DNA of 53,735 bases, taken from IMG/VR virus record IMGVR_UViG_3300023223_000794, positions 1 through 53,735 of that record; one strand, 5' to 3'. Source of the stretch: a virus. Position 1 is the first letter of the stretch. Each line of letters opens with the position of its first letter. The notes under the pieces were generated by a model. That model did not search any database, was not told the DNA's origin, and saw nothing but the letters and a program-made list of their open reading frames with translations. Position numbers and translations under genes: made by a program. Positions 15,057-50,738 of the stretch are shown one piece after another.

Positions 15057-15236
15057 TTAATAGTTTAAACCTTCTAAGTAATTTAAACGTTCGAATTCTT
15101 GCTCTTTTTTATATCTTATATAGGCTTCTTCATTAGCTTTTCGTTCAAATTTCCAACAGACAGAGCAAAAATAACTATTCCCTTGTAATTCGTCTTCTTT
15201 TGTTAATGATATTCCACAATTATTACAACTATTCAT
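15057..15236 (-). CDS. Small zinc-ribbon protein
   Basis: A 59-residue protein from the ATG at 15236, which overlaps the polymerase-gene stop by ATGA. A longer frame to 15275 lies inside the polymerase gene and is rejected. It has CNNC at residues 4-7 and CSVC near 27-30, a compact zinc ribbon, followed by a charged Glu/Lys/Arg helix. Unknown partner. Confidence 0.55.
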   Translation of the reverse strand: MNSCNNCGISLTKEDELQGNSYFCSVCWKFERKANEEAYIRYKKEQEFERLNYLEGLNY

Positions 15237-16222
15237 AATTTTAACCTTTCCATTTTCTTCACATTTCTTCCCCACTCTGCTTCGGTTTTCATTTGAAACT
15301 TTCTGTCCTTGTGCTCAAACTTAATACTCATAAACTCACTTAACTTTTCCGCCACTTCCTTGACATCTCGTTCCGGTGCTTGCATCAATACGCTGTCATG
15401 CTTATTACTTAGTACGTCCCACTCTACCTTCCCCTTGTCTTCCACATACTCTTGCATTTTTGTCAGCGCTATATGTGTAATACATCCTACAGTACTTTGT
15501 GGACAGTATGAATAATAGCTCTTGATTTTTTCTTGATTCAAATGTCCTGTGATTTTAATCGGATACCCGAATAAATTCACTATTTGCCCTGTGTCAAACG
15601 CCTCACGACGCACTGCGAAATGCCAGCATTTAATCTCTGGAAACAGTGTATGATATATCCTTAGAAACCTGCGTGCTTCGTCTAACGCCAAGTAAACCCT
15701 GCCCTGACTTTTTATCAAACAGTTCATTTGAAAAGTCTGCGCTTCCATGCCATAGTTAGCAGCATGACAAATCATCTTCCCTAGATCATAATATCTAAAC
15801 TCACTAGAATTCGGAAGATACAGTTCTTTAATTAGTTCGTCCAGCGTGGTCCAGTTCTCAGACTTCGCTAATTCTCCTGGTCTACAAGACAAATACCGCG
15901 CTTCAAACAGCTCGGGACTTACTTCCAACTCTTTCGCCCACTCTTTCGAGAACACATGCATTGCTACGAATACGTGTGATTTTACTCCTGCCTGGAATAA
16001 TTCCAAAAACTGCCCAGGCGGTGCAATGTTTGCAACAATAAATGCTTCGGCTCCTGCTTGATCTACGTTTACGAATACTTTATCTTCGTCAGGAATCCAG
16101 AGTGACACCATAGTCTGCGAAGGGTTCTGAACATTCCCTCCCTGCCGAAGTATCGTTTTTCGAGAAGACGCACGATACGTATCAGTTCCAGACAAGGCAT
16201 AGTTAGTTGAGATGCGGATCAT
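15233..16222 (-). CDS. Family-A DNA polymerase, C-terminal half (palm/fingers)
   Basis: The protein has 329 residues and carries the catalytic core of a PolI-type polymerase. Motif A is VNVDQAGAEA (Asp54). Motif B is GKMICHAANYGM (Lys149 to Gly158). Motif C is NKHDSVLM (His275-Asp276). It begins at RISTNYALSGTDTYRASSRK, which in intact enzymes follows the thumb. The thumb and 3'-5' exonuclease are in a separate gene (17099-18646), 876 bases away with three genes between. The start is fixed by an ATGA overlap with 16219-16383, so this half is made as its own polypeptide. A Tyr in the NYG motif occupies the Phe762-like position. I infer a two-subunit replicative polymerase. Confidence 0.9.
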   Translation of the reverse strand: MIRISTNYALSGTDTYRASSRKTILRQGGNVQNPSQTMVSLWIPDEDKVFVNVDQAGAEAFIVANIAPPGQFLELFQAGVKSHVFVAMHVFSKEWAKELEVSPELFEARYLSCRPGELAKSENWTTLDELIKELYLPNSSEFRYYDLGKMICHAANYGMEAQTFQMNCLIKSQGRVYLALDEARRFLRIYHTLFPEIKCWHFAVRREAFDTGQIVNLFGYPIKITGHLNQEKIKSYYSYCPQSTVGCITHIALTKMQEYVEDKGKVEWDVLSNKHDSVLMQAPERDVKEVAEKLSEFMSIKFEHKDRKFQMKTEAEWGRNVKKMERLKL

Positions 16223-16757: not shown

Positions 16758-17102
16758 TTAGTTGTTGTTAATATCTAGAGTCATTGCGGTAACCCGCATT
16801 ATATGATCTAGAAAAGCAGACTTAATGTAATTAATTATATTTCCAGTGTTCTTTGTTGTAATCATCACGCTTCCTGGAAATGGTTGTGTCCTTTCCATGC
16901 AAGTGATTAATATGCGGTCAGTACAAGCATCATCAGGATTACTTAATCTGATATGTATAGTATAATGACATTCTAAGAAACTGGTAAATAATAAAGTTTT
17001 ACCTCCATTGTTTATGTATTCTATGCAATCGGCCGCACGATAAAGCTTTAAAGCCTTTAACTGCGCAGTCAGGGTTCTTACGTCTTCTTTAGTTAAGTTC
17101 AT
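16758..17102 (-). CDS. Hypothetical protein between polymerase halves
   Basis: A 114-residue protein whose start overlaps the stop of the polymerase N-half as ATGA (17099-17102). It begins with a helix (LTKEDVRTLTAQLKALKLYR) and continues as alternating beta strands. It has no nuclease or intein signature. Translation coupling makes it part of the same operon. Function unknown. Confidence 0.6.
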   Translation of the reverse strand: MNLTKEDVRTLTAQLKALKLYRAADCIEYINNGGKTLLFTSFLECHYTIHIRLSNPDDACTDRILITCMERTQPFPGSVMITTKNTGNIINYIKSAFLDHIMRVTAMTLDINNN

Positions 17103-18646
17103 AGCTCATCCCAATTCATTGGCTCAAATTTTAACTCTCCTGCAATTTTTGCATATTTCCTATAAGCCAAACACACATCAATCACAGCATTCTTGTCATG
17201 TGCAAGCTTTAGTTTATACATAGAATCTTTCGCTAGACTTGCCAATCCAGTTTTCTTTGATTTCATCACTATAGGATAACATAATTCATCATGGAAATAC
17301 TTAGCTAATTGTGGTGGACTACCAGGATTTATATCATAACCTACTAGCTCTTTTAGCATTCGAAGATAGAAGTTTAACCTTACGTCAATATCCTTTTTAA
17401 GCTTAAGCATTCGTTCTTCGTCCACTTTAATCCCTGTAAGCTCTACAATAATATATGGTCGGATACTTTTAGACACCTGCTCGATACTTGCCTTCACTCC
17501 AGGCCTTATGCTAGCATACGTATCAATTCCTTCTTTAATTAGCATCATAAGTCTCACATCTTTCGCACAATACATCCACAGTTGTTCTTGTTGCTTCGTA
17601 TTGTGTGGGTTAAAAATACCTTCGTCTTTATGAAACGTTTCCTCAGTCCAATAACTTCCGCAGTGTCCAAGACTTCGCTCTATGAATGGAAAACATCGAT
17701 GATGTGCAAGCATAGTATCGTAAAGCTTACGCCCTAGCGGTAGATGGTATTTTCGCGCCAGCACTAAGTAATCAAAACTTTTGCCGTTATGTGCCACAGT
17801 TTGATTTCGAGACATTGCAAAGACCAATGCCCGCAGAATTCTATTCAATGCTGTCGGTGAGTAAACCCCTTCGTACCGAAAGTTCACTAAAGGCACTACG
17901 TATACGTTTTTTGTGTCAAATCCAAAACCAAAGCATGACATCTCAAGCGTCGGCGGCATAGTCTCTATATCCAGGAACAAATCCCTGCCTTCGTTCTGAC
18001 GGAGCACTTGCTCTACAAGTTCTAACGTCGGCACAAGATGGAATTGAGTCTTTACTTCAGGTAGTAACCCTCTGGTAGCCCATTTTCTCGCACGCAGCAT
18101 GTCAGACTTAAACCAAAACCTGTAATTCTTTCTTTGTGTTTTGCCGTGTCGCCGTTTTTCATCCCCGACTTCATCTTTATTGGAGGCTTCATGGCTGGCG
18201 TAAGGATTAAATCTAGCTTCATAATCCACCTGGTCAAAACAATCTTGGTAAGCGAAAGTAGAAGTACAGATAATATCTGTAGTATCCGATCGAATAATTC
18301 CAGTTATTTCTCTCATTCCTGTTATATACTTACACACCTTTGGAGTTCCTCTAGCTTCTTGGAGTAAGTAATCAGTATCCGACGTCTTTATATAAAAGTT
18401 GTGAGCTTTCTCACCCAAAGCTACGATTACTTTAGTCCCCGACCGAATTATTCCAGTATCTCCAAGTATTCGAACTTCTGTATGGTCTAACGAGAACTTG
18501 TTCCCAAGGCAAGATTTTACAAATTTTCCAGCAGTTCCGCTAAGTAACTGTTTTTGGTTATCAAATCTTGATGGATGTGATACTACTAGAGTAATCCCAC
18601 GATACTCTTTTGTAGGATTCATTCGATATGGATAAGGTTTAATCAT
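17099..18646 (-). CDS. Family-A DNA polymerase, N-terminal half (UDG-like, 3'-5' exonuclease, thumb)
   Basis: The protein has 515 residues from the ATG at 18646, which overlaps the upstream TGA. An upstream ATG at 18667 is less likely. Residues about 15-130 resemble the uracil-DNA-glycosylase-like domain found on some phage polymerases (LLSGTAGKFVKSCL, VIVALGEKAHNF). The 3'-5' exonuclease follows: LFLDIETMPP (Asp226, Glu228), AHNGKSFDYL (Asp292) and YCAKDVRLM (Tyr359, Asp363). The end is the thumb (INPGSPPQLAKYFHDEL, LAYRKYAKIAGELKFEP) and stops where the palm should continue. That part is encoded at 15233-16222. The exonuclease residues are intact, so proofreading is expected. Confidence 0.88.
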   Translation of the reverse strand: MIKPYPYRMNPTKEYRGITLVVSHPSRFDNQKQLLSGTAGKFVKSCLGNKFSLDHTEVRILGDTGIIRSGTKVIVALGEKAHNFYIKTSDTDYLLQEARGTPKVCKYITGMREITGIIRSDTTDIICTSTFAYQDCFDQVDYEARFNPYASHEASNKDEVGDEKRRHGKTQRKNYRFWFKSDMLRARKWATRGLLPEVKTQFHLVPTLELVEQVLRQNEGRDLFLDIETMPPTLEMSCFGFGFDTKNVYVVPLVNFRYEGVYSPTALNRILRALVFAMSRNQTVAHNGKSFDYLVLARKYHLPLGRKLYDTMLAHHRCFPFIERSLGHCGSYWTEETFHKDEGIFNPHNTKQQEQLWMYCAKDVRLMMLIKEGIDTYASIRPGVKASIEQVSKSIRPYIIVELTGIKVDEERMLKLKKDIDVRLNFYLRMLKELVGYDINPGSPPQLAKYFHDELCYPIVMKSKKTGLASLAKDSMYKLKLAHDKNAVIDVCLAYRKYAKIAGELKFEPMNWDEL

Positions 18647-18909
18647 GGTATTAGACTTATAGGGCATTTAACTAGAACTTCAAGTTTAGTCTCTAACTTT
18701 GACGATCTTACTAAAAATCCTAGGAATATTATGTCTTCTTTTCCGTGAATATCCACCCTACGCCATAAGTACGCTGCGTTTGTAAGGATTTTTAACTCTT
18801 GCCGGCCTAATTCAATTGCAATGACAGAAAAGTTTTTTTCTTTTGCTTTACTTAAGAGCTGTTGAATTTGCTCGAGTATTAGATCAGGATTTAATAAATT
18901 TTTGCTCAT
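18643..18909 (-). CDS. Small hypothetical protein
   Basis: An 88-residue alpha/beta protein overlapping the polymerase N-half start by ATGA. It has no membrane segment and no recognised motif. Position directly upstream of the polymerase suggests a replication role, unproven. Confidence 0.55.
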   Translation of the reverse strand: MSKNLLNPDLILEQIQQLLSKAKEKNFSVIAIELGRQELKILTNAAYLWRRVDIHGKEDIIFLGFLVRSSKLETKLEVLVKCPISLIP

Positions 18910-23930: not shown

Positions 23931-24154
23931 ATTTTATCCAAGTTTCTTTGCTGTTGTTTCAGTTGTGCAAGATCGAGTTGCTCCTTGACTTGTGCTAATT
24001 TTCTTTGTTTTTCGTTCGCCATTAACTGCCCGCGTAGAAGTCCAAGATGGTAACACGTTACAGCATAACTATCTAAACTTTGATTTTCAGTCGAGGTCTG
24101 GATTTTTGCAAAAGCTTCAACAGCTAGTTGCGTTTGATAATCGCTAATGATCAT
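23915..24154 (-). CDS. Small coiled-coil protein
   Basis: A 79-residue protein from the ATG at 24154, with a purine-rich GGAAAGAAGGGAAAA just upstream as ribosome-binding site. An in-frame ATG at 24187 lies inside the previous gene and is rejected. The C-terminal half (QRKLAQVKEQLDLAQLKQQQ) is a coiled coil. Overlaps the nuclease gene upstream of it by 16 bases. Confidence 0.5.
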   Translation of the reverse strand: MIISDYQTQLAVEAFAKIQTSTENQSLDSYAVTCYHLGLLRGQLMANEKQRKLAQVKEQLDLAQLKQQQRNLDKIWNKL

Positions 24155-24437
24155 TTTTCCCTTCTTTCCCTCCTTTCCCTCCTTCACTCACTCCTTCCAA
24201 GGCTTTTAACATCCTGGCAATAGTATTATTCAATTCAAGTTCTTTCATTTCTCGTGCTTTCTTTTTTGTCTGTGGTTTTGTGGTTTTAGCTTTTACGCTT
24301 TTCATTCCCTCAAGAGTCTCAGCACTTAATGGAGTTCTTGTTACTATTAAATATGGTGCAAGAAACTCTTTTAGCTGTGCATCTGTCATGCTTTCCATAA
24401 GATCAACAGACATGCTTAGTAGTGCATCAATAGTCAT
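24144..24437 (-). CDS. Small charged protein
   Basis: A 97-residue protein, start overlapping the preceding stop by ATGA. The N-terminal helix contains VDLMESMTDAQLKEFLAPYL. The rest is Lys/Thr-rich and ends GGKGGKEGKNDH. The Gly/Lys-rich end is encoded by the purine tract that doubles as ribosome-binding site for the next gene. Function unknown. Confidence 0.5.
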   Translation of the reverse strand: MTIDALLSMSVDLMESMTDAQLKEFLAPYLIVTRTPLSAETLEGMKSVKAKTTKPQTKKKAREMKELELNNTIARMLKALEGVSEGGKGGKEGKNDH

Positions 24438-24697: not shown

Positions 24698-25278
24698 ACG
24701 CTTTTCACTAAATCTATTCTAATCTTTCCCTCTGTTGTAACACTCACGTTTATCTTAGTAGAATCTTTACATAGCAACCGAACTTGCTCTAAAAACATAT
24801 CACTAACGAGAACGAGTTCAGTAAAATCTCCTGGTTCGCCTTCTTCAATAAACATTCCCAACCCTTCTAACGTAGCCTGTGTGTCTAACTCCATGGCTGA
24901 AAACTCTCCTGCATCTAGTTCTTTTTGTAATCCTTCTGCGCCTTCGTTAAGCCTGTCAATAGGATCTAATGTTACGCTTCCTAGCATATCTTTATTGGGA
25001 CCACGCTTAACCCTACCGTCAGGGTTTAACCTTACACGCACTGTATTGGAACCCTCTTGATGTATAGTATATTGCTCCCAAATGGTATACCATTTAGAGG
25101 CTTTGTTATTCTCTGCTAGCCATTCAATTCCTGCGCGTATTTTTTGTGTAAAAGAATTTTGTTGTAATCCAACGTCAGAGGGATGCATTTCAAATTCAAT
25201 AAGCTTTTCATTTAACACCCGTTCCAGTATTTGCTGAACTTCTTTTCCATTTCTTTCAGTCTTATATCCACCTGTCAT
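24694..25278 (-). CDS. Hypothetical protein next to the enhancer-binding-type ATPase
   Basis: This 194-residue protein is directly downstream of, and coupled by ATGA to, the NtrC-type ATPase gene at 25275-26186. The N-terminal third is helical, the middle contains RVRLNPDGRVKRGPNKDML, and the C-terminus is acidic and then beta-rich (KINVSVTTEGKIRIDLV). The basic segment could touch nucleic acid. Because the ATPase lacks a DNA-binding domain, this partner deserves testing as its targeting subunit. That is speculation. Confidence 0.5.
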   Translation of the reverse strand: MTGGYKTERNGKEVQQILERVLNEKLIEFEMHPSDVGLQQNSFTQKIRAGIEWLAENNKASKWYTIWEQYTIHQEGSNTVRVRLNPDGRVKRGPNKDMLGSVTLDPIDRLNEGAEGLQKELDAGEFSAMELDTQATLEGLGMFIEEGEPGDFTELVLVSDMFLEQVRLLCKDSTKINVSVTTEGKIRIDLVKSV

Positions 25279-26186
25279 GTCAACTCTCCTTTCAATAGAA
25301 AATTTATATACATCTCGCGTAACTCTCCTTCAAGTTGTCTAACATTCCCTTTCTTTACAAGGGTTGCCCACGTGTTTTTATCCCAAGCTGTTTCATTAAA
25401 CACTTTACTGAACTCTGAACCCCAGTCGTTTAATGCGATAATATGTTCAGCGATTGGAGGTATATCAGACATACGGTCTACGAGTGCCGGAATTTGAATT
25501 TGAATCCTTGCTAGCCGATGGTATAAGTCTTCCCTTAGTATAGGGTGTTCAGTACTAAAGACTCTTGAAGTTGCTGCTAAAAATCTACAGTTTGCAGTTT
25601 CATGTTGGTCTGAACCTACAGGTTTAAAAGTCCTATCTTCTAAAACTCTCAAGAGCTTTACTTGTATAAGCTCTGGTAAATCCCCAATTTCATCAAGAAA
25701 CAGTGTCCCATCATCAGCCGCACGTATTAATCCCTTACGATCGTTCACAGCACCCGTAAATGATCCCTTTATGTGTCCAAACAGTTCACTTTCGATTAAA
25801 GTTTCTGTCATTGCGTTTGCGTTACACGCTATGAATTGTCCAGTTCGTTCACCATGCAACGCGCGGGCTATGATTTCTTTTCCAACGCCTGTAGGTCCTT
25901 GGATAAATACAGAGTCTTCCATCGCACTAGCTAGCGTAACTTTTGCTTTCATGTCTATGCATAGCTGACTCTGGATTGTTATAAAGTTTTCTAATTCGTC
26001 TAGGACTTTACAATAATGATATTTATTTAACTTAACTTTCATTATCTCACTACAACTGTTTGCGAGAGATAGTGAACCAAACACTTCAGTTACAGTATCT
26101 TGTTCATGGTCTAATTGATAGATAGTTCGAAAATATCCTAAGATATCCTTTCCTATAATTCGTTGGGTAGGGTGTGTTTTATTCAT
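25275..26186 (-). CDS. Sigma-54 activator-type AAA+ ATPase (NtrC/PspF core, no DNA-binding domain)
   Basis: The protein has 303 residues. Residues about 70-300 follow the bacterial enhancer-binding protein core point by point: Walker A GPTGVGKE (97-104), ESELFGHIKGSFTGAVND with the sigma-54-contacting loop GSFTGA (141-146; usual GAFTGA with Ala changed to Ser), Walker B TLFLDEIGDL (Asp165-Glu166), sensor I RFLAATSR (201-208), arginine-finger region LREDLYHRL (218-225) and sensor II GNVRQLEGELR (280-290). In bacteria this core hydrolyses ATP to open sigma-54 RNA-polymerase complexes. The N-terminal ~70 residues are not a response-regulator receiver. The protein ends right after the AAA+ lid, so the Fis-type helix-turn-helix is missing. 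Five -24/-12-like elements in the genome support this function. A replication role is the alternative. Confidence 0.85.
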   Translation of the reverse strand: MNKTHPTQRIIGKDILGYFRTIYQLDHEQDTVTEVFGSLSLANSCSEIMKVKLNKYHYCKVLDELENFITIQSQLCIDMKAKVTLASAMEDSVFIQGPTGVGKEIIARALHGERTGQFIACNANAMTETLIESELFGHIKGSFTGAVNDRKGLIRAADDGTLFLDEIGDLPELIQVKLLRVLEDRTFKPVGSDQHETANCRFLAATSRVFSTEHPILREDLYHRLARIQIQIPALVDRMSDIPPIAEHIIALNDWGSEFSKVFNETAWDKNTWATLVKKGNVRQLEGELREMYINFLLKGELT

Positions 26187-26213: not shown

Positions 26214-28118
26214 TTATGGGCAGCGGAGGTAATCAGTAGTTATAAGCGGTTTAAACTCTAGTAGTTTAGGTTCGGCAGGGAAAGTAAGTAACTTAAGCTC
26301 TAGCTCTGGCTTTAACTCTATAACATCTTCCTCAACTGCAGACTCCACAAATGCAGAGTTAGCTAATTCTTCCCGTTCGGCTTTAAAATCTTCCGTTATT
26401 TCCTCCTCAGTGGCCGCACGAAAGTTTTTAAGGTCTTTGGCATTTATTTTTCCGTTCGTAGCTTCTACGCCTCGCTTGATTAGCAATTCATTCCAGTCTT
26501 CTTTTGTTCGAATTACTTCTTTTAAACATCCTAATTTTGGTTTCATGTTATCATGCACTTCCTCTTCGACAGTCCCGGTGTAATAAATCATAGACTGATA
26601 TGCATCTGAAATAGAATTATACCGTAGCGCACGACCAAACACTTGAACTACTTCATACGCGTCGTAAGATGGTGTTCCGTTCAGTACACGAGGGCGAGAA
26701 TCTACATGCTCGTGATGAAGATCTAGACTAGCGCCGCCAGCTTTTGCTGTGAATAGGCAAGTGCTTCGGCCACCTTGTTGATATTCGTCAATGACATCTT
26801 GTTGCCTTTTGTCTCCCATAGGCTTAAAGAAAGCTTTAAGTTTTTCCCATTGCTTTTCTGTGGCAGTAATCTTATCATACTCTAGATGTAATGGTTTATG
26901 TTGAATAAACTCGTTTAAGTCTGCTACGCCTCCCCAGATTAGCGTAATATGCTCTAAAGGTACACCATGTTTACAGTATAATTCGATTACACAACGGATA
27001 ATAGTTCCTTTGAAATTCGTTGCAATGAGTGGATACTTGTCATTCTCTAGAGCTGTTATGGTTCGTTCTACTAGGATAGAGCATCGTACTAATTCTCCAC
27101 GTTCTCTGAAAATGTTCTTTGCTACCATCATTGCCATTCCAGAGCCTGGTGCACTACGATCAATTTTCCGTAGCCTTTCGAGATAGTCATCCCATGCACG
27201 GGTAAACCAAGCTTTGTGACCAGAGGACTGAAATTCAAGTAACTCTGCCCGATTATAGGCCTTACACTTCGGCCGAGCATTCTTTAATCGTATGATGTTA
27301 GACCCTAACCAGTCTACTATACGAGCCATGCCGGCCTGGTTAGGAATCGTAGGGTCACTTTTGTAAAGTTCTTGTGCCCGTTCCATTAGTTCCTTTGGCC
27401 TGAACATCTGAGTGCTAAGAATAAAAGTCTCTGCGTGGGCGAGATGAACCCATGGAGTAGCTGTTACCATCATCTGAAGAAATTTAAAGTTCTTGGTTTT
27501 AATTCTTCGGGCCATCTCTGTAAAATTCCTGGCAATTTGGGTCTGTTTACTATTCGCATTTCTTAAGTCATGCGATTCGTCTATAACAAGAATCTGCGGT
27601 GCAAACATAGGATTCCAGACAGGCATGATATAAATATCTCCAGCATGAACAAAGGTTTCCCAAGAGATGAACTTCTTTCCGGCTCTGTTTCGTAGTTCAC
27701 CCCAAGTCATGATAGCCACGGAACCGCCTGACTCTACAGGTAAACCAAATTTGTTCTTTAATTCTCTGTAAGTTTTGATCTTTGCTTTTTTTCGGACTAC
27801 GATTACGACGGCCGCGCTTCCTAGAGGTTTCTTAATGAAACCTGAGTCGTAAAGTTCTCGAAGCCATTCCCCAAAAACGATTGTTTTTCCACAACCTGTT
27901 ACACCTTGGACTAACGCAGAAAAGCTCTTTCCTCGGCTAAAATGCTCTGCAATAGAATTCAGTCCAGTTTTTTGAAAATCATGTGGTCCTCCATAGTTCC
28001 TTCGAGTCTTTAATACAATTGCCGGCGCTTTCTCACGGAACATCTTAGCTCCAATGATATCGTTAATCAGCTTTGTAGAAGTCTGGGAAGGTAAATCTTC
28101 GAAGGAAGTGATACTCAT
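26214..28118 (-). CDS. Superfamily 2 DNA/RNA helicase
   Basis: The protein has 634 residues. Motif I GVTGCGKT is at 72-79, motif II VIDESHDL (DESH, Asp180-His183), motif III VTATPW (about 218-223), and the C-terminal RecA domain has CLFTAKAGGASLDLH and motif VI VVQVFGRALRYN. This is a phage DEAD/DESH-like helicase, as used in replication initiation or recombination. The C-terminal ~90 residues are acidic and probably disordered. It is upstream of the sigma-54-type ATPase with a 27-base gap. Confidence 0.9.
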   Translation of the reverse strand: MSITSFEDLPSQTSTKLINDIIGAKMFREKAPAIVLKTRRNYGGPHDFQKTGLNSIAEHFSRGKSFSALVQGVTGCGKTIVFGEWLRELYDSGFIKKPLGSAAVVIVVRKKAKIKTYRELKNKFGLPVESGGSVAIMTWGELRNRAGKKFISWETFVHAGDIYIMPVWNPMFAPQILVIDESHDLRNANSKQTQIARNFTEMARRIKTKNFKFLQMMVTATPWVHLAHAETFILSTQMFRPKELMERAQELYKSDPTIPNQAGMARIVDWLGSNIIRLKNARPKCKAYNRAELLEFQSSGHKAWFTRAWDDYLERLRKIDRSAPGSGMAMMVAKNIFRERGELVRCSILVERTITALENDKYPLIATNFKGTIIRCVIELYCKHGVPLEHITLIWGGVADLNEFIQHKPLHLEYDKITATEKQWEKLKAFFKPMGDKRQQDVIDEYQQGGRSTCLFTAKAGGASLDLHHEHVDSRPRVLNGTPSYDAYEVVQVFGRALRYNSISDAYQSMIYYTGTVEEEVHDNMKPKLGCLKEVIRTKEDWNELLIKRGVEATNGKINAKDLKNFRAATEEEITEDFKAEREELANSAFVESAVEEDVIELKPELELKLLTFPAEPKLLEFKPLITTDYLRCP

Positions 28119-31553: not shown

Positions 31554-31949
31554 TTACTGTGCTATTGGCACGTAATTTTCTAGCAATTTTAATTGTTCAT
31601 CCCAAACTTCTATTTGTCCTTCGAGTTTCTTTCTTAATTCCACCGTGCAACTACTACAATCCTTTCTTGTTTTTCGAATCTCCCGTTTTAGTATATCTCC
31701 AAGCACAACTGCTACAATGTGTTCGAATGTTGACCCCGACGGGCTAACTGTTGGTTCCTTCGGATCTGCTTTTGCTCTTTCCACGCTTTCTTTTAACTCC
31801 TCTGCTGTTGTGGCTTCTAAAATCCGTTTATATAACACATCTAACATCATTTCTTCTTTTGTGTCTGGTAATACAAGTGGGCTAATAACAAAAGCCCGTA
31901 TTGCTACCTCAAGTATCGCTGCTTCGTTCGATGTTAGTGTAAGAGTCAT
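31554..31949 (-). CDS. Hypothetical protein, first gene behind a perfect -24/-12 element
   Basis: The protein has 131 residues from the ATG at 31949. An open frame continues up to an ATG at 32027, but that would place the start codon inside the promoter element (32011-32026) and upstream of its expected RNA start near 32000. The core is helical (LTSNEAAILEVAIRAFVISP), with a CSSC pair and charged helix later. Function unknown. If the sigma-54 interpretation is right, it is the first gene of a sigma-54 transcript. Confidence 0.55.
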   Translation of the reverse strand: MTLTLTSNEAAILEVAIRAFVISPLVLPDTKEEMMLDVLYKRILEATTAEELKESVERAKADPKEPTVSPSGSTFEHIVAVVLGDILKREIRKTRKDCSSCTVELRKKLEGQIEVWDEQLKLLENYVPIAQ

Positions 31950-32010
31950 ATCAAGTTCCGTTGTTCTGCGAGGTTCTGTGAGAGCCCTCGGCTCTGCTAC
32001 CCCTATAGAA

Positions 32011-32026
32011 AGCAAGTCTTGTGCCA
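32011..32026 (-). promoter_or_regulatory. Sigma-54-type -24/-12 promoter element, perfect match
   Basis: On the minus strand the bases read TGGCACAAGACTTGCT, an exact match to TGGCAC-N5-TTGCW. The predicted RNA start is about 12 bases past the GC, near 32000, giving a ~50-base leader to the ATG at 31949. My scan of the minus strand between 11.6 and 32.8 kb found only this and the 32712-32727 element with correct TGG and TTGC spacing at mismatch 0-1. Both sit at gene starts. Confidence 0.65.
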
Positions 32027-32027
32027 T

Positions 32028-32711: not shown

Positions 32712-32727
32712 AGCAATTACCTTGCCA
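32712..32727 (-). promoter_or_regulatory. Sigma-54-type -24/-12 promoter element, one mismatch
   Basis: Reads TGGCAAGGTAATTGCT on the minus strand; the only difference from TGGCAC-N5-TTGCW is A at position 6. The predicted RNA start is near 32701, about 23 bases before the ATG at 32678. Confidence 0.55.
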
Positions 32728-39699: not shown

Positions 39700-39713
39700 T
39701 TTCATGGGCACTA

Positions 39714-39729
39714 TGGCATGATTCTTGCT
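39714..39729 (+). promoter_or_regulatory. Sigma-54-type -24/-12 promoter element upstream of the capsid gene
   Basis: TGGCATGATTCTTGCT lies in the 132-base gap between the scaffold and capsid genes. It differs from TGGCAC-N5-TTGCW only by T at position 6. The predicted RNA start is near 39740, giving a ~90-base leader to the capsid ATG at 39832. A strong hairpin terminator 2 kb further on (41710-41776) closes the unit. Confidence 0.65.
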
Positions 39730-39831
39730 ATAGTATAGACAGTCACTACAAGGATTGGGCTACCATTTAGACTAATTGTCACTAATTTTGCATTGGGCAG
39801 TGCTACTGATGTAAACTTAACTCTTAGACTT

Positions 39832-41121
39832 ATGGCAACAATAGCAGTTCCTAGTATTGATCAACCAAGAAATATTGAGATTCAATTCTCGATAGAAGAT
39901 AGAGAGCGATATAATACGCTACCGTTCTATTTTGCAAAATTTCAAGTGGATGATATGCGCTTGAATTCTGTGTATGCAAAGATGACGCGTAAAAGACGAT
40001 GGCAACCAAATGAAGGTCCGACAATGACTGCGGTTAAGAAAGCACGTTCACCTTTGATTCGTCAAAATGCATTCCCAGTCGGTGTTCAAAGTGAACCATT
40101 GATTGATACTTACGATGTGACTGAGGTGGCGAAGCGCGCGAATGTACATCGCCAGAACTTTCAATCGCCAGTATTTAAATTCGGTCCGCATTTTGAAAGT
40201 TTCTTTGCAGATAATATTCAACCGAATGTAGATAACATTATTACTCAGATTCGGATGTTCCGGGAGTTCTTTCTTCGGACAAGGATGTTTCATAAAGCTC
40301 CGTATATTTATCTTCCTGATTCAGTGGATAGACTTTATGCTGCACCTAGTACTGAAGGTGCTGCGGATGGTTCTGTTGGAAAGACTACGGACTGGCTTCA
40401 AGCTATGTCAACGCAAGTCGGTGATCCAGGAAATCTTTCGCTGAATACTGTTTATCAGACAGCACAAGCAATGTCTACAGACATTGGTGCGCTGCCGTTT
40501 AAGCCTGGTGGAGATATTGTGAATTCAAACGGTCTTAAGGACAAGTATGTTCTGATTACTTCGGAAGAGGCTTATATGCAGTTTAACTTTGATCCTTTTC
40601 GCTTGGAAAATCGAGAACTTTCTTTGGATGTAGTTACAGATAATTTTAAAGGTGATATTTTTGGTCGAGTTACTTGTATGACAGAGACGCATCCTTTGCG
40701 CATGTTGAATGATGGAACTTTTCCAGCACCGGAAACTCGGATTGAAGAGTCGGCAGGAGCGCCGGATCTTATTGGCGAAACGGTTCCAAATCCTGCATAT
40801 GTTACAGCTCCTTGGGAAATTGCGCTTATGTTTGGTGCCGATTCCTTCGAGTCTTTTGAGGTTGGTCCTCCACCAAAACACTTCTCGTCGAACACTGCGC
40901 CTAGTAAGCAGAAGTTTAATGCGATGCGGTGGAATGGTGAGGTTCGCATGATTGATAATATGATCATACCTGATGGTTCTGGCGGCTATGCTACGAATGA
41001 GTGGGGTGAGTATCTCAAGTTAATCGCTGATGTTACAATTGGTGCAATTGCAGTAAGAGAATTGAACGTAGTTCCTATCTTATTCAAGCGTATTAGAGGC
41101 GTTGAAAATTCCATTGCATAA
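39832..41121 (+). CDS. Major capsid protein (putative)
   Basis: The protein has 429 residues from the ATG at 39832. A TTG at 39793 is possible but would sit in the leader. The protein follows the scaffold and precedes a strong terminator, and it has the mixed alpha/beta composition and length of an HK97-fold capsid (APSTEGAADGSVGKTTDWLQ, then FNAMRWNGEVRMIDNMIIPD in the C-terminal part). The assignment is by position and style; no motif proves it. Expression is probably controlled by the -24/-12 element. Confidence 0.75.
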   Translation: MATIAVPSIDQPRNIEIQFSIEDRERYNTLPFYFAKFQVDDMRLNSVYAKMTRKRRWQPNEGPTMTAVKKARSPLIRQNAFPVGVQSEPLIDTYDVTEVAKRANVHRQNFQSPVFKFGPHFESFFADNIQPNVDNIITQIRMFREFFLRTRMFHKAPYIYLPDSVDRLYAAPSTEGAADGSVGKTTDWLQAMSTQVGDPGNLSLNTVYQTAQAMSTDIGALPFKPGGDIVNSNGLKDKYVLITSEEAYMQFNFDPFRLENRELSLDVVTDNFKGDIFGRVTCMTETHPLRMLNDGTFPAPETRIEESAGAPDLIGETVPNPAYVTAPWEIALMFGADSFESFEVGPPPKHFSSNTAPSKQKFNAMRWNGEVRMIDNMIIPDGSGGYATNEWGEYLKLIADVTIGAIAVRELNVVPILFKRIRGVENSIA

Positions 41122-50222: not shown

Positions 50223-50738
50223 ATGAATTCTGAAGATGGCGAAGGGGGCCAAAGGGGAATAGAAGAAAATCATGCATCACTAGTCGTTGACTTAATGGTA
50301 AGAAAAGGCTATCCGGTAGTTCAACCAAGTCATGAATCGCACAAAAACAATTTCTTTAAATTTACAGTAATTTCCTTTGGCTTTATCCTAGGTCTACTCT
50401 TAGTTTGCAATTTAAAGATTGTCTCACAGTGGCGAATAACAATCGATGAAGATTTAAAAACCGTAGATCAAAAGTTAAAAGCTTCCCTGATCGTACCGCT
50501 TCTGTTACACTCGAATGTAACTAAAAACACTGCGATATTAAATGGCACGAAAATTGCTGTAAGTAGTTTAGAGAAGGCGAAAAACGAAAACACTATTCGA
50601 ATAAATAACTTGTATATGATGCTTGAGCAAGTGCAATTTGATTTGAAAACCCTCAAGAGTGAAAATCTTATACTCCTTGATTCGATGGTAAATGGAAATA
50701 ACGAAGTAGTAAGAACCCCAAAGAAAGAAAAATTATGA
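50223..50738 (+). CDS. Membrane-anchored coiled-coil protein
   Basis: The protein has 171 residues. The N-terminal ~45 residues are charged, a membrane segment lies at about 46-63 (FKFTVISFGFILGLLLV), and a long C-terminal helix with coiled-coil pattern follows (SSLEKAKNENTIRINNLYMM). Type II topology with an external coiled coil is that of inner spanins, although it is unusual in length. A perfect -24/-12 element lies inside the coding sequence at 50543-50558. Confidence 0.55.
   Translation: MNSEDGEGGQRGIEENHASLVVDLMVRKGYPVVQPSHESHKNNFFKFTVISFGFILGLLLVCNLKIVSQWRITIDEDLKTVDQKLKASLIVPLLLHSNVTKNTAILNGTKIAVSSLEKAKNENTIRINNLYMMLEQVQFDLKTLKSENLILLDSMVNGNNEVVRTPKKEKL
50543..50558 (+). promoter_or_regulatory. 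Sigma-54-type -24/-12 element, perfect match, inside a gene
   Basis: TGGCACGAAAATTGCT is an exact match to TGGCAC-N5-TTGCW. It lies within 50223-50738; the predicted RNA start is near 50570, and the first complete gene downstream begins at 50735. If active it would raise expression of the tail-fibre, LamG and nozzle genes. Because it is inside coding DNA, chance is possible. Confidence 0.4.

Follow-up and report, generated by a model that had tools for sequence, protein, structure and literature searches.

RNA polymerase carrying sigma-54 cannot leave the closed complex by itself; an AAA+ hexamer first has to insert its GAFTGA loops and remodel region I. The bacterial enhancer-binding proteins (e.g. 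NtrC, PspF, FlrA, NtrC1 and RtcR) share a PF00158 core with the GAFTGA loop, the Walker A and B motifs, arginine fingers and sensor II. AAA+-only forms are also familiar, as in the construct PspF1-275, and Helicobacter FlgR is a natural activator without a DNA-binding domain. Phages redirect host polymerase via sigma-70-type factors, antiterminators or polymerases of their own, and to our knowledge control by sigma-54 activators was once thought to be bacterial. In the Pseudomonas phage YuA (AM749441) virion genes are preceded by -24/-12 promoters that the annotation marks as active, and its late promoters are reportedly rpoN-dependent. DctD250, an AAA+ core alone, needs no enhancer to activate many sigma-54 promoters in vivo, in both Salmonella and E. 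coli (PMC3844500), and Chlamydia CtcC, which has no DNA-binding domain, has been proposed to be a general activator (PMC12282069).

The window, by which we mean the whole 53,735 nucleotide stretch of viral DNA analysed here, encodes a putative activator, P0001, on its minus strand (Table 1), the plus frame containing many stops. P0001 differs from the bacterial enhancer-binding proteins in being phage-borne, in having neither a regulatory domain nor a helix-turn-helix (HTH), in having no evident enhancer, and in its sequence identity to them, which is well under 50%. Whereas DctD250 and PspF1-275 are laboratory truncations of bacterial proteins, the phage truncation is natural and family-wide. 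CtcC and FlgR resemble P0001 in their lack of a C-terminal HTH but are chromosomal and have a receiver domain and a sensor kinase, while YuA, unlike the family to which the window belongs, has no PF00158 protein and no strong-consensus sites (1-50 kb).

Table 1. Position of the predicted features in the window and, in the last row, of sigma-54 genes in two relatives.
Feature	Position	Strand	Basis
97-aa gene, shortly downstream of activator in 14 relatives	24144..24437	-	gene-order comparison
Protein of 194 aa, diverged within the ~200-aa family; its gene is translationally coupled to that of P0001	24694..25278	-	HMM of 15 homologues, 7.7e-7
Predicted sigma-54 activator AAA+ core, 303 aa (P0001), no C-terminal HTH	25275..26186	-	Pfam, motifs, family-wide conservation
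Walker B LFLDE, residues 162-166	25689..25703	-	motif reading and homologue conservation
GSFTGA sigma-54-contact loop, residues 141-146	25749..25766	-	motif reading; GxFTGA-type in homologues
Walker A GPTGVGKE, residues 97-104	25875..25898	-	motif reading and homologue conservation
Helicase-like gene, conserved upstream neighbour of activator	26214..28118	-	Pfam and gene-order comparison
-24/-12 element TGGCACAAGACTTGCT, ~60 bp upstream of internal ATG 31949	32011..32026	-	consensus scan
-24/-12 element TGGCAAGGTAATTGCT, 34 bp upstream of leftward operon's first gene	32712..32727	-	consensus scan
-24/-12 element TGGCATGATTCTTGCT, 103 bp upstream of capsid gene	39714..39729	+	consensus scan; relatives share position
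Capsid mRNA leader; relatives' leaders have one or two AGGGCA-loop hairpins, degenerate here	39738..39831	+	
Major capsid protein gene, 429 aa, predicted sigma-54 promoter target	39832..41121	+	AlphaFold/Foldseek, homologues
-24/-12 element TGGCACGAAAATTGCT, 12 of 12, within ORF 50223-50738, further rightward genes downstream	50543..50558	+	consensus scan
Sigma-54 genes	L256:3387-4676 (G050); L090:2730-4196 (G007)		

An initial sequence-only reading had described P0001 as an AAA+ core with the GSFTGA loop, both Walker motifs, an arginine finger and sensor II, and all of these are found as stated, with arginine fingers at R218/R224 and sensor II at R283. Pfam PF00158 (Sigma54_activat) matches residues 72-231 over profile positions 4-168 of 168 (3.9e-49), and all significant matches listed among solved structures (FlrA, NifA, ZraR, NtrC, FleQ, NtrC1 and PspF) are sigma-54 regulators. 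Matches to bacterial sigma-54 regulators reach 4e-43 in phmmer, and at least 25 NCBIfam models, nearly all of sigma-54 regulators, match P0001 via their AAA+ parts with scores far under the model cut-offs. P0001 also matches the 339-position PHROG profile phrog_7998 (1.2e-33), as does an HTH-bearing bacterial-type activator (L053/G028) along positions 9-317, so phrog_7998 is a broader family of unknown function. The same reading had noted the absence of a receiver domain and an HTH, and indeed Pfam and NCBIfam searches reveal no receiver, GAF, PAS or other N-terminal regulatory domain, and no HTH, in P0001. Residues 1 to about 66 match nothing known, the tail after R283 is 20 residues long, and P0001 forms a long branch in the activator tree. 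On its predicted features P0001 is placed in the sigma-54 activator AAA+ family, but the name enhancer-binding protein is withheld, as the DNA-binding feature was looked for and not found.

The relatives of the window constitute an uncultivated phage family represented by metagenomic contigs, with genomes of about 45-55 kb and a conserved gene order. The order seen in the window recurs in 16 contigs, whole or nearly whole, and runs helicase, activator, ~200 residue gene, 97 residue gene, PD-(D/E)XK and (in some) Sak4-like genes, then a two-piece DNA polymerase A, DUF3987 and the structural genes. The polymerase is split into genes for its N- and C-terminal parts, at 15233-16222 and 17099-18667 in the window and likewise in relatives. 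No cultured relative was found in INPHARED by tblastn with three conserved proteins, and capsid matches in MAG contigs give no consistent host. Among the INPHARED matches to the activator, almost all are bacterial contigs that bear phage labels; the ones read over their full length are bacterial regulators and in nearly every case have an HTH. The mislabelled records (OR84xxxx-OR85xxxx, MT83xxxx, CAKLQ..., AGRM..., AFYI...) hold ordinary bacterial sigma-54 regulators and, together with INPHARED rpoN matches of the same kind, look like host contamination. The only true phage case among these matches is a human-gut phage of another lineage (MT121960.1), which has an HTH-less activator core beside replication genes (L002:19773-20687) and no -24/-12 site of the standard consensus.

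Scans of viral contigs with P0001 or the helicase as a single sequence gave no match, and a two-sequence alignment gave poor search patterns; an alignment limited to the activator core succeeded, yielding 38 viral loci, about 25 of which share one design, in which the core follows a short N-terminus and the protein stops 140-170 residues past the loop. Across the family the core is strictly maintained: Walker A K103, Walker B D165/E166, R224 and sensor II R283 are kept in 59 of 59 distinct homologues, and a contact loop of the GxFTGA type, with few substitutions, is likewise present in every one. The stretch N-terminal of Walker A varies (31-132 residues), and the C-termini of all 59 aligned activators end 13-30 residues past sensor II. 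None of the relatives' activators examined has an HTH after the core, and this predicted absence is a trait of the family.

Candidate promoters were scored out of 12 against the consensus TGGCACG-N4-TTGCW (also TGGCAYR-N4-TTGCW), with GG and GC fixed. The window holds four sites at ≥11/12 and seven at ≥10/12, so that the -24/-12 elements proposed from the sequence alone are upheld but not their number, which had been given as five. About 0.16 sites per window would be expected by chance at ≥11/12 (dinucleotide shuffles, maximum one per shuffle; Poisson P ~2e-5), and no site at this threshold is present in lambda, T7, N4 (1-50 kb), Mu or YuA (1-50 kb). Overall, 17 family contigs contain 64 such sites in 777 kb, compared with 0 in 225 kb of control phages. 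Two of the window sites (32712 and 32011) are at the head of the leftward operon, where ORF 31554-32027 may really begin at ATG 31949. As this operon also contains the activator, positive feedback is possible. A weak sigma-70-like match (39705-39734) overlaps the capsid site; such matches are not enriched.

The assignment of the capsid gene is based on an AlphaFold model (pLDDT 66.5) in which a long helix resembles the spine and some strands the E-loop; the Foldseek matches listed for it are phage capsids throughout, with HK97-fold capsids matching at E down to 2e-10. The fold is nearest to that of podoviruses such as N4 and cyanopodoviruses. As the first set of relatives was found via the activator, we reseeded the search with the capsid protein (13-sequence alignment), giving 102 matches of which 80 were retained. 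Of the 80 loci, 37 carry a site at ≥11/12 before the capsid gene, compared with 1 of 392 control segments drawn from the same loci, and at ≥10/12 the figures are 59/80 and 21/392; many of the 80 loci are closely related, and these therefore represent fewer independent events than 80. The capsid-proximal sites of the relatives are 125-271 bp upstream of the gene. A PF00158 protein is encoded in 59 of the 80 capsid-seeded records, including every record of 34 kb or more, and the 21 records without one are all fragments (≤33.7 kb).

This co-occurrence of activator and -24/-12 elements in related phages, which the sequence-only reading had proposed as a check, together with the sites upstream of the capsid gene supports its view that the phage drives its own sigma-54 transcription. 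Relatives without elements, which it had regarded as contrary evidence, are not the rule, the exceptions being MT121960 and one clade (L162, L168, L173, L175, L179, L181) with no sigma-54 site at the capsid gene, in which the upstream gene almost reaches the hairpin leader. The longer records of this clade retain the activator, and three have a TGGCATGATTCCTGCT site 82-155 bp after it; from its sequences the clade is judged to have lost the capsid promoter. Since the capsid gene of most members has a predicted sigma-54 promoter a short way upstream, late expression is probably sigma-54-dependent.

The leaders of the capsid genes contain small hairpins with a conserved six nucleotide loop, AGGGCA, and compensating stems (GGTA/TACC, GCGA/TCGC, GTTGC/GCAAC), as in L115, L116, L123, L162 and L178. 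At least one is present in 50 of 70 distinct leaders and at least two in 35 of 70, against a background of 0.002-0.013 per 230 bp. They are retained where the sigma-54 site is lost. Neither hairpins nor leaders have an Rfam match in the five sources scanned, and the leader in the window folds no better than shuffled sequences.

Eight relatives (G007, G050, G052, G055, G060, G062, G064, G067) encode a complete sigma-54 in the replication region, with AID, CBD and DBD domains and the RpoN box ARRTIAKYRAELGI, indicating that the family does invest in sigma-54. In G007 the gene is between the Sak4-like ATPase and DNA polymerase, and in G050 and its close relatives it is upstream of the helicase and activator; as these are eight separate contigs and two genomic positions, chimeras are unlikely. 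The activators of the sigma-54-encoding phages form one supported clade (99/88). No cultured phage equivalent of the phage sigma-54 was seen, and the window record has no rpoN homologue. Capsid sites in the sigma-54-encoding clade score only 8-9/12 and are not enriched, 9/12 not being rare by chance, and a special promoter consensus for this clade could not be shown.

We propose that P0001 is a phage activator cut down to its ATPase motor, acting from solution at the phage -24/-12 promoters, those of the late operon included, and assign this reading a probability of about 0.82. P0001 would be made from the replication operon, early or in the middle of infection, and would oligomerise as an ATPase whose GSFTGA loop contacts region I of sigma-54, remodelling the sigma-54 RNA polymerase waiting at the phage promoters into open complexes. 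It would be gated by its own expression and not by a receiver domain. Activation is predicted for the capsid (late) operon, for the head of the leftward operon, to which the activator gene belongs, and in most relatives for the operon behind the activator; late transcription would be sigma-54-dependent, following synthesis of the activator. Most members, the window included, would use the sigma-54 of the host, one clade supplying its own. Given the lack of a DNA-binding domain, and several promoters with little upstream room for an enhancer, P0001 most likely acts from solution, on any closed complex. For the family as a whole, it is probable that late transcription runs on sigma-54 RNA polymerase under the control of the phages' own solution-acting motor, and that the sigma-54 system of one clade needs just host core polymerase.

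The alternative that survives best, though we consider it unlikely, is a core tethered near the promoters by a DNA-binding partner, either the ~200 residue protein encoded next to it (194 residues in the window) or another phage protein. In 16 contigs, one of them the window, the activator is followed by a gene of the ~200 residue family, which is found there in all relatives extending far enough, and in the window the two genes overlap by 4 bp, a conserved adjacency that would suit such a partnership. The model of a ~200 residue homologue (pLDDT 80, pTM 0.45) has an alpha-beta-alpha-alpha-beta-beta domain at residues 47-125, which in VIA-align weakly resembles Stn1 (Z 5.4) and the winged helices of Pi and RepE (Z 4.4). 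These values (Z 4-5.4) are below the meaningful level, Foldseek returns no match under 0.001 and Pfam essentially none for the family, and naming the neighbour by fold match was rejected as the matches are too weak. The predicted domain of the 194 residue protein (45-126) is at best weakly winged-helix-like; the neighbour may bind DNA, perhaps in replication. A further gene just upstream of the activator in G050 (L256:8011-8331) encodes a 106 residue HTH-like and coiled-coil protein, a candidate DNA-binding partner in the sigma-54-encoding clade. A ~110 residue gene between helicase and activator in nine relatives was rejected as a partner, having no visible HTH and being absent from the window.

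The promoters themselves speak against tethering. Well over half of the relatives checked have a site at ≥9/12 no more than 220 bp from the activator stop, in most cases on the same strand, at a threshold where the chance frequency of sites is not negligible, and in about 30 relatives a site is 2-62 bp past the stop; the window has no promoter site here. Such a site would drive the ~200 residue gene and the replication genes after it, and because most relatives have a sigma-54 promoter between the two genes, the neighbour looks like a target. At an offset of 2-11 bp the DNA upstream is activator coding sequence, leaving little non-coding room for an enhancer, and several promoters are without non-coding space upstream. 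Activation from solution would fit better than activation with a partner.

It is improbable that the core is aimed instead at the host, switching its sigma-54 regulon on or jamming it as a decoy, with the phage promoters secondary. Host sigma-54 promoters should indeed fire too, as an activator in solution is promiscuous (DctD250), but well-placed -24/-12 sites are over-represented in the phage genomes, and the catalytic residues intact in all members argue against the decoy version. There is very little likelihood that genuine phage promoters rely on host activators, making the phage core superfluous; this appears to be so in YuA, whose annotation lists active -24/-12 late promoters and whose proteins include none with PF00158, but in the present family the core is universal and intact, unlike a dispensable gene. 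Hardly credible is a replication AAA+ protein (helicase or clamp loader) that resembles sigma-54 activators, which would account for a gene in the replication block beside that of the helicase and for a weak match of P0001 to the PHROG clamp-loader profile (5e-6), as 59 homologues retain the loop that contacts sigma-54, the solved structures listed as top relatives are all of sigma-54 regulators, the genomes carry sigma-54 promoters and some sigma-54 itself, and there is no sign of the helicase loader role that the sequence-only reading had envisaged as a counter-explanation.

In a literature search covering few subscription journals, neither a sigma-54 activator nor a sigma-54 encoded by a phage was found described, and with this incomplete coverage novelty is likely but not certain. 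The AAA+-only DctD250, CtcC and the late promoters of YuA are already known; it is their combination in a phage, of which the search found no description, that is likely new.

The proposed solution-acting motor has implications for both phage and host. Promoters dependent on sigma-54 give no transcript unless a motor hydrolyses ATP, a property well matched to an all-or-none late switch. As a predicted side effect, infection would also fire the sigma-54 regulon of the host. The relatives with their own sigma-54 would possess a compact, possibly orthogonal sigma-54 system, and with AAA+-only activators occurring as a natural family, it can be asked whether the enhancer-binding part has ever been indispensable.
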